Origin: Desulfosporosinus youngiae DSM 17734
Lineage (GTDB): Bacteria; Bacillota; Desulfitobacteriia; Desulfitobacteriales; Desulfitobacteriaceae
Length of the DNA stretch: 64,000 nt
Reading direction: 5' to 3'
NCBI RefSeq assembly: GCF_000244895.1
Contig: NZ_CM001441.1
Span: forward strand, 930,001-994,000
Numbering within the stretch: the first letter of the stretch is position 1; each line of letters opens with the position of its first letter. Of the stretch, positions 22,991 to 45,848 are shown piece by piece. A model generated the notes under the pieces. The model was not told the origin of the DNA. It ran no database searches and saw only the letters and a list, made by a program, of their open reading frames with translations. Both the position numbers and the translations under genes were made by a program.

Positions 22991-24337
22991 ATGTTTAAAA
23001 AAGTCCTGATCGCGAATCGTGGAGAAATTGCCTTGCGCATTATTCGAGCATGTCGTGAGCTTGATATTGAGACTGTCGCTGTTTTTTCTGAGGGTGATCG
23101 GGAAGCCTTGCACGTCAAGGCAGCAGACGAAGCGGTCTGTATCGGCCCTGTGTCAAGTGCCAAGAGTTACCTTAATATCCCTAACATCATTAGTGCAGCA
23201 GAATTAACCGGTGCTGATGCAATTCATCCCGGCTACGGTTTTCTATCTGAAAATGCCCGATTCTCTGAGATATGTGAATCGTGTAATATTACGTTTATCG
23301 GGCCATCCCGTCAGGTTATTGAAACGATGGGGGATAAGGCTATGGCTCGAAAAACGATGATTGAGGGCGGGGTTCCTGTAGTTCCAGGCTCAAAAGATAT
23401 TATTACAGATGAAAAGAAGGCTGCAATTGTAGCACAGGAAATTGGCTATCCCGTATTAATTAAGGCCTCAGCAGGCGGCGGGGGCAAAGGAATGCGAGTT
23501 GCTCAGAATGCCAAGGAATTAAGCAAATCCATTCAGGCGGCTCAGAATGAGGCGCAGGCCTCATTTGGCAACGCTGAGGTTTACCTTGAGAAATACGTAG
23601 AGGAGCCAAGACACATAGAGATTCAAATATTAGGGGATAACTATGGTAATGTAGTCCATCTTGGGGAACGGGATTGTTCCTTACAAAGACGTCATCAGAA
23701 ACTTCTGGAAGAGTCCCCTTCAAGTGCCATTAATCCGAAATTGAGAGCAAAGATGGGGGCTGTGGCGGTTCAAGCAGCCAAGTCAGCAAACTATTCGAAC
23801 GCTGGAACGATTGAGTTTTTGCTGGACCGGCATGGGAACTTTTACTTTATTGAAATGAACACACGCATTCAGGTTGAGCACCCGGTGACAGAAATGGTAA
23901 CAGGGCTTGACTTAGTGAAAGAGCAAATTCGATTAGCCGCAGGTGAACCGCTGGGCTATACTCAACAAGATATTCAACTTCGGGGCTGGGCCATAGAGTG
24001 CAGAATTAATGCCGAAGATCCGGATAAGAACTTTATGCCTTCGCCAGGGCTGATCAATATTTACCATGTTCCGGGCGGGCCGGGGGTTCGTGTCGATAGT
24101 GCGGTTTACCAAGGCTATACGGTTTCTCCTTATTATGACTCGATGGTTGGAAAATTGATTGTTTGGGGCGCTACCAGACAGGAGGCCATTGCCCGAATGA
24201 AACGAGCCCTCGAGGAATTTGTTATAGAAGGAATTCATACCACAATACCGTTCCATTTGAAAGTATTGGACAATGCTTTCTATCAACGGGGTGAAGTGTA
24301 TACGAACTTTATTCAGCGCCGTATCCTGGGAGAGTAG
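22991..24337 (+). CDS. accC: Biotin carboxylase (AccC/PycA)
   Basis: ATP-grasp enzyme that carboxylates biotin on the carrier using bicarbonate. About 448 residues, beginning [20 protein letters not shown]; the ATP-binding [12 protein letters not shown] loop and [16 protein letters not shown] catalytic region are intact. ATG 22991 follows TAAGGAG, whereas a longer frame from 22946 overlaps the upstream gene. It serves the fused carrier, and perhaps acetyl-CoA carboxylase too. Confidence 0.95.
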
Positions 24338-24341
24338 ATCT

Positions 24342-24702
24342 ACATGCCGCTAAGGCGGTACCATCAGAGGATGATAAAGAGGGCGCTCCCGGGTCGGGCA
24401 GTTTCGCCCACATCCGCTCACTCAGCACTCCGAGGCTCGCCCACTCGCCGGTGCGGGAGCTACCTTCAGCGGATAAGTATTCTTTGGGGATAGCCGCTTC
24501 GGCGAAAATGTCCACCGGACATTTTCGTGCCAAACCTCCGGGTAGTACCTGATGTGAACCCGTGGCTACGTCTCCCCGCACCGTCTTGTGGGCTTTTACC
24601 GCCTCTCCATGCCATGGGTTCGCTTCTGTGGACGAAGCTGCCCTGCTTGCGGGTCTGGGGATTCTTCTGAATGTCTTTAGGGTCTTCTTTTCAAAGTAGA
24701 AT
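24342..24702 (-). repeat. Dispersed structured repeat, copy A
   Basis: A roughly 350-bp non-genic element whose reverse complement matches 45493-45770 over most of its length at roughly 85% by eye. On the minus strand, 24643-24627 pairs with 24412-24396 (17-bp arms, one wobble and one mismatch). A nested stem pairs gcccac...acggtgcggg with cccgcaccgg...gtgggc. It carries an extra arm of about 66 bases absent from copy B. It begins within about 10 bases of the accC stop. It may be a structured RNA gene or a small non-autonomous element. Confidence 0.75.
24503..24527. repeat. Perfect palindrome in the copy-A-specific arm
   Basis: cgaaaatgtcc (24503-24513) and ggacattttcg (24517-24527) are perfect reverse complements around a 3-base loop. 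It lies within the segment missing from copy B. Confidence 0.8.
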
Positions 24703-24768
24703 TCGTGACTTTTAGTTCGACATTCGTTTTACGAACTACGAACCAGGAAGGATGAATTATGAATATCG
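24703..24768. repeat. CGAAC-family intergenic repeat (copy 3)
   Basis: Contains attcgtgac, agttcgacattcg, acgaactacgaacca and tgaatatcga, much like copies 2 and 6. It lies between structured repeat copy A and the asp23 promoter. Confidence 0.5.
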
Positions 24769-45492: not shown

Positions 45493-45772
45493 TCTACCCT
45501 AAAAAAGACCCTAAAGATCTGCAGAAGAGTCCCCAGGCCCGCAAGCAGGGCAGCTTCTCCCACAGGAGTGAACTCATCGCATGGAGAGGCGGTAAAAGCC
45601 CACAAGCCGGTGCGGGGAGACGGAGCCACGGGTTCACATCAGGTATTACCCGGAGGTTTGGCGGAGTCCCGCGCTGGTGAGTGGGCGAGCCTCGGAGTGC
45701 TGAGTGAACGGATGTGGGAGAAGCTGCCCGACCCGAGCGACCTATTTTCATCATCTAATGGTGCTGTCTCAG
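45493..45772 (+). repeat. Dispersed structured repeat, copy B
   Basis: Inverted counterpart of the element at 24342-24702. gggcagcttctcccaca (45548-45564) and tgtgggagaagctgccc (45713-45729) are perfect 17-bp reverse complements. Nested within are gcccac (45598-45603) with gtgggc (45681-45686), ccggtgcggg (45607-45616) with cccgcgctgg (45668-45677), and a cgggt/acccg hairpin. It starts within about 10 bases of the spoIIM stop. The spoIIM frame cannot read through, as its stop is intact. Confidence 0.78.
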
Positions 45773-45848
45773 AGGCATGAACAGCCACTCAAGAGTTCAT
45801 CAACATTCACTCCCAGCGGGCACCGAATTTAACTGAAGATTGCAAAGC

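Follow-up and report, generated by a model that had tools for sequence, protein, structure and literature searches.

The window, that is, the whole stretch of 64,000 nucleotides of Desulfosporosinus youngiae DSM 17734 analyzed here, carries two inverted copies of a structured element outside the annotated genes, one following spoIIM (copy B) and the other following accC (copy A). The question raised by this locus is whether the fold of the element is selected as an RNA, or whether the two copies are insertions of a young, folded mobile repeat. Both possibilities had been put forward in an initial annotation made from the sequence.

The two copies in the window

Copy B extended over positions 45494–45790 (+ strand) and consisted of a 5′ leader, a rod, and a 3′ hairpin unit. 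Its limits were set by the alignment of 83 copies, outside which conservation was at background level, and by the empty orthologous sites of relatives. The rod core (45548–45729, +) was a single extended imperfect hairpin, as seen in the consensus fold of 54 copies, the fold of copy B itself, and covariation. It was closed by two 17-bp arms, 45548–45564 (GGGCAGCTTCTCCCACA) and 45713–45729 (TGTGGGAGAAGCTGCCC), which were read as perfect reverse complements. The apex motif (GGTTCACATCAGGTATTACCCGGAGGTTTGGC), near-invariant across the family, was located at 45631–45662 (+). The pentamer GACCC immediately followed the rod on its 3′ side (45730–45734, +), and a GACCC-like repeat, here GGCCC, was also present 5′ of the rod. 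The 3′ hairpin unit, designated U (TTTTCATC..GGTGC..GGCATG..), was a conserved 3′ block at 45745–45790 (+), also recovered in genome searches.

Copy A (24331–24707, − strand) was antisense to accC and the next gene, and could be aligned with copy B along the entire element. It comprised the rod core (24396–24643, −), the apex motif (24529–24560, −), and unit U (24331–24377, −). An additional block of approximately 66 nt (24528–24463, −; ACGAAAATGTCCGGTGGACATTTTCGCCGAAGCGGC...) was found in the apical region next to the apex; this block, insert module 1, forms a hairpin and occupies a loop whose position in the rod is fixed. In the arms of copy A (GGGCAGCTTCGTCCACA and TGTGGGCGAAACTGCCC), one T-A pair was changed to G-C, one pair to G-U, and one was mismatched (C opposite A). 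The long-range stems, the 17-bp arms, and these three changes had all been listed in the initial annotation and proved correct when re-read. The description of A and B as inverted copies was likewise borne out over the full element, and each copy folded better than every one of 100 shuffles of its own sequence (z −3.95 and −3.20).

Both copies had been said to begin near a stop codon. This is true only of their left edges in the window: it is the 5′ end of copy B that meets the spoIIM stop, and the 3′ end of copy A that meets the accC stop. The accC stop codon TAG (24335–24337, +) was located inside the reverse of the terminal CTACTCT of copy A and was thus apparently provided by the insertion. 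A TTGCTA-TATAAT promoter near copy B had also been linked to the element; the box belongs to ald, is also present at the element-free orthologous site L113, and was not seen to play any role in the element.

Family size and distribution

The genome of the window (G000, one contig of 5,660,978 bases) yielded at least dozens of matches when searched with copy B. The apical core motif was found in 83 copies (40 forward, 43 reverse) and in none in the reversed control, which excludes chance. Following the 3′ hairpin unit brought up about six more cores, in which the stem or the apex was a variant form, giving a total of about 89. The two copies noticed at first are thus real, but they are not a pair; they are two out of about 90. 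When the 83 copies were fetched with their flanks, conservation was at least 95% at most positions of the core and roughly 50–90% in the leader and the 3′ unit, and the flanks were random.

The family was detected by BLAST in 29 of the 46 genomes of the bacterial family, and by a covariance model based on 54 copies in 40 of the 74 genomes and 12 of the 22 genera of the order, several genomes having at least 20 copies. The label "young" therefore suits the insertions in the genome of the window, but not the family itself. Among related genomes, the copy number ranged from 0 to about 100. The apex motif occurred in six of 398 evenly sampled Bacillota genomes, all six from the window's own family. 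Among about 85,000 collected species, the named carriers were Desulfosporosinus, Paradesulfitobacterium, and two MAGs, one from Clostridiales and the other labelled Gracilibacter. Either the copy in the latter MAG (L172:1654–1788, 36.7 bits) arrived by horizontal transfer or the bin is mislabelled.

The apex motif had no match in phages, plasmids, or viral contigs, and an origin from any of these was rejected on that ground. The Rfam covariance models gave no match at the gathering threshold and no credible match at a relaxed one. Known RNA families (HEARO, group II intron, and others) were accordingly rejected, and the good Rfam match named in the initial annotation as evidence against a new element was not found. 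The family is found only within one order (Desulfitobacteriaceae and close relatives) and is absent from Rfam 15. None of the papers searched contained the apex motif, a genus-wise literature search gave nothing on the repeat, and the main text of two recent structured-RNA surveys does not name the carrier genera.

Rod structure and selection on the fold

The consensus fold of 54 copies showed the core as one extended rod hairpin of approximately 187 nt, with 59 pairs broken by internal loops. The apex (GGTTCACATCAGGTAYTACCCNGAGGTTTGGC; also written GGTTCACNTCAGGTAYTRCCCNGAGGTTTGG) was near-invariant, including across genera. The stems varied between copies and retained their complementarity; the middle helix was largely rewritten between genera with pairing kept (e.g., L046, L049, and L103). 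When 55 cores drawn from several genera were aligned with MAFFT without reference to the structure, double changes were observed in 39 of the 59 pairs, against 25.1 ± 2.5 in shuffled data, and 257 cells were counted against 64.6 ± 6.3. Sliding the pairing partners destroyed this signal (31–73 cells). The same test within G000 alone gave 12 pairs with double changes against 5.0 ± 1.0. Numerous copies lacking covariation had been considered in advance as evidence against selection; the copies found were numerous and covaried, both with one another and across genera. A coding origin was rejected, as copies differed by single-base indels, modules were inserted at loops, and a shared reading frame was not evident.

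The direction of the changes was then counted by tree parsimony with a filter symmetric in both outcomes. Watson-Crick pairs changed to G-U 61 times and to A-C 20 times (p 6e-6), and 43 and 19 times, respectively, in G000 only (p 0.003); these counts are to be read with the reservation that parsimony is approximate here (short sequences, possible gene conversion) and that the structure was predicted under RNA rules. A constraint on double-stranded or cruciform DNA would give equal numbers of G-U and A-C changes, so the folded form is that of the strand written here. The bias indicates selection on this strand in its folded form, as RNA or single-stranded DNA, and most simply as RNA. Terminal branches also preferred G-U (51:27 in G000 and 33:12 in G018), the preference was not clear among the strictly private, youngest changes (10:7), and no difference between internal and terminal branches was detected when per-copy selection was compared with lineage-level selection.

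The strand bias is compatible with a purely DNA-level element as well, since single-stranded DNA accommodates G-T wobble pairs. In that case, the rod would form a hairpin in single-stranded DNA while replication is under way, and a transposase or recombinase specific for single strands would move it, as in REP/RAYT or integron attC. However, a rod of 59 pairs with an invariant apex far exceeds the size of known sites of that kind. Further evidence on this explanation is given below with the rod-less copies and the genomic sites.

Modular, rod-less, and composite forms

A full copy opened with a short 5′ leader and a GACCC repeat, followed by a rod of 187–390 nt, a second GACCC, and, in Desulfosporosinus, the 3′ hairpin unit. 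Rods fell into length classes of 187 (54 copies), 223, 253, 289, 324, 355, and 391 nt. The lengths are quantised because hairpin modules (+36 and +66) insert at fixed loops: the 36-nt module (ACGAAGACACTGTCTTCGCACGAATTAACTAATCTTGC) and the 66-nt module, as in copy A, occupied two fixed loop positions. Judged from rod length, the 66-nt module is present in about 20 of 81 measured rods, and a related module was sometimes lodged within it. The 36-nt module (CGAAGACACTGTCTTCGCACGAATTA) had 67 genomic occurrences in G000, of which 29 were inside rods and more than half outside; it may be a mobile unit in its own right.

Three copies were rod-less (L137:440, L023:1799, and L081:2269) and had their junction at, or between, the two GACCC repeats found on either side of the rod in other copies. 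They are either empty forms or hairpin-mediated deletions. Exact joining at GACCC resembles excision or slippage at a hairpin, which also fits the DNA-level explanation.

A divergent version of the apex (GGTTCACATGCAGAAATACCCAGAGGTTCGG) was carried on a larger rod (L144:515–889, L145:430–895, and L138:404–870). Seven exact cases were found in G000 (45947, 453985, 1707392, 2431961, 2797337, 3080806, and 3324243), and all seven were located approximately 320–390 bases upstream of a core on the opposite strand, which shows that a head-to-head composite form exists. Comparable opposite-strand matches adjoined cores in relatives. A further palindromic repeat (GGTTGTCCAAATTGnCCTGCGCAGGCCAATTTGGGACAACC) adjoined two copies (L147, about 400–460, and the 3′ flank in L087).

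Genomic sites and mobility

In G018, G036, and other relatives, the spoIIM-ald interval was free of the element, i.e., the site of copy B was empty there. In G018, spoIIM stops at the identical codon. The same interval in L112 and L119 contained other repeat-like insertions with a common segment (GTTTAG..GAACTTATCCAGG). Copies were intergenic and in both orientations, and were adjoining or nested within other repeats, copies, and modules. The complete genomes showed no preferred orientation relative to genes (78 sense and 82 antisense in G000; 33 and 26 in G018), and a cis-regulatory leader was rejected because of this inconsistency. A set of draft genomes (L148–L210), unlike the complete ones, had copies antisense to flanking genes more commonly (77:39, p 0.0005). 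A molybdenum cofactor riboswitch was located at L083:3476–3605, 1.5 kb from one copy.

The variation in copy number from none to about 100 among relatives, the inconsistent orientation, and the empty site speak for an element that is mobile and probably selfish, and the covariation together with the strand bias indicates that the folded strand matters for propagation or function. Thus, of the two possibilities in the initial annotation, selection on a folded RNA and a folded mobile element, both hold: the former in the covariation and strand-specific tolerance of G-U, the latter in the dispersal and the empty copy B site.

The copies could also be dispersed RNAs of benefit to the host, serving as processing, terminator-like, or stabilising sites for neighbouring transcripts, or jointly as a trans-acting RNA. 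Structure-keeping changes prevailing on terminal branches too, and an apex near-invariant across genera, would fit such RNAs. The inconsistent position and orientation relative to genes, the range of 0 to about 100 copies among related genomes, the empty copy B site in relatives, and the nesting with other copies and modules make this explanation quite unlikely.

Flanks of 28 copies, compared with shuffled pairings, showed no target-site duplication. No terminal inverted repeat was found at the outer ends, which were direct-repeat-like (CTACYCT). Within 3.5 kb of copies, no gene for a transposase, reverse transcriptase, integrase, nuclease, helicase, or intron protein recurred (clusters judged by first residues). 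An autonomous, ORF-bearing version was rejected, as no nearby protein recurred and the longest copy showed nothing suggestive of one.

The Y1 transposase (PF01797) was not detected in G018 or G007 despite their many copies (at least 35 in G018, about 100 on the 112-candidate scale; at least 20 in G007), and HUH/Y1 mobilisation, as judged by co-occurrence, was rejected as not required in two well-populated complete genomes. The strand of the copies was also unbiased relative to the replication fork (48:41), with the origin assumed near coordinate 1 and the terminus near the middle. With these two results and the size of the rod against it, the DNA-level explanation is considered unlikely.

RVT_1 domains were found in 44 of the 46 family genomes, including all well-assembled carriers. 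This ubiquity and the strand-specific selection would suit a SINE-like retro-element, whose folded RNA would serve as template for a reverse transcriptase from another locus. However, RVT_1 and element abundance were not associated (13 matches and no element in G001; one match and about 40 elements in G004), and the element was without target duplication or tail. Co-occurrence with reverse transcriptase was uninformative. The SINE-like route, which is the most specific form of the explanation preferred below, is doubtful but deserves some weight. Its fullest version, a protein-free RNA parasite, held at its apex, recognised in trans, copied back into the chromosome, and growing by hairpin modules that preserve the rod, would be a bacterial analogue of a SINE and is improbable.

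The element is probably a non-autonomous, non-coding mobile repeat for whose spread a folded RNA, recognised at its apex by a putative trans-acting factor of presumed mobilising chemistry, is required. It would be transcribed by read-through, and the strand written here would fold into the rod. The apex would then be the recognition site for a trans-acting protein copying or moving the element, with RNA or single-stranded DNA as the likely intermediate. Such a recognition site cannot drift, whereas the stems, which need only pair, can. Given the lack of target-site duplications and terminal inverted repeats, the transposition step is a candidate only.

Interspersed repeats of bacteria tend to be regarded as DNA debris that folds only incidentally. 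In this family, which is missing from Rfam, different genera have retained the fold, and an asymmetry points to a single folded strand. The approximately 90 natural variants per genome and the quantised insert states form a ready mutational data set on apex binding and movement, and the near-invariant apex could serve as bait in a search for the putative mobilising protein.

Comparison with known repeats and structured RNAs

REP palindromes are 20–40 bp long (PMC3733652). The present element resembles REP/BIME with RAYT in being a dispersed palindromic intergenic repeat able to cluster, but differs in its rod of 187–390 nt and in occurring in genomes where no Y1 transposase was detected (G018 and G007). 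Structured RNAs are also carried on mobile elements such as IscB/HEARO, with its omega-RNA, and group II introns, some copies of which are ORF-less. Unlike these, the family had no Rfam match, and a recurrent nuclease or intron protein was not found near copies.

The BOX elements known from Streptococcus pneumoniae and S. suis are high-copy composite intergenic repeats with exchangeable modules, a predicted RNA fold, and mutual insertion (PMC3049150). They can supply gene stop codons and have been judged parasitic, their mobiliser not being proven; in S. suis, different outer parts surround common inner modules (PMC3049150). The present element is similarly composite, folded, and probably parasitic, with a variable number of modules (quantised lengths, two fixed insert positions), and its rod variants have hairpin modules in common, as in S. 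suis. However, BOX elements end in terminal inverted repeats and are accompanied by target-site duplications (PMC3049150), neither of which was found here, and a 59-pair rod, a near-invariant apex, and cross-genus covariation are not described for it (PMC3049150); the comparison is one of features.

Candidates classed as mobile or repeat sequences are often located near transposase, integrase, nuclease, or helicase genes (PMC11109978). One of them, MRSC-65-2, has dozens of copies per genome in inconsistent orientation and a single long covarying stem, and was judged selfish, the authors leaving RNA or DNA open; it has more than 20,000 examples in diverse phyla and a UYCCGG repeat (PMC11109978). 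The many copies per genome, inconsistent orientation, and single covarying stem are shared with this class, but no recurrent cluster of such genes was present within 3.5 kb. Unlike MRSC-65-2, the core consensus lacked UYCCGG on inspection, the distribution was limited to one order, and a conserved apex and nested modules were present. As far as tested, the element represents a separate new family, comparable to BOX and to the mobile or repeat sequence candidates and a member of neither named family. It is set apart by its near-invariant apex, strand-specific constraint, and head-to-head composite form.
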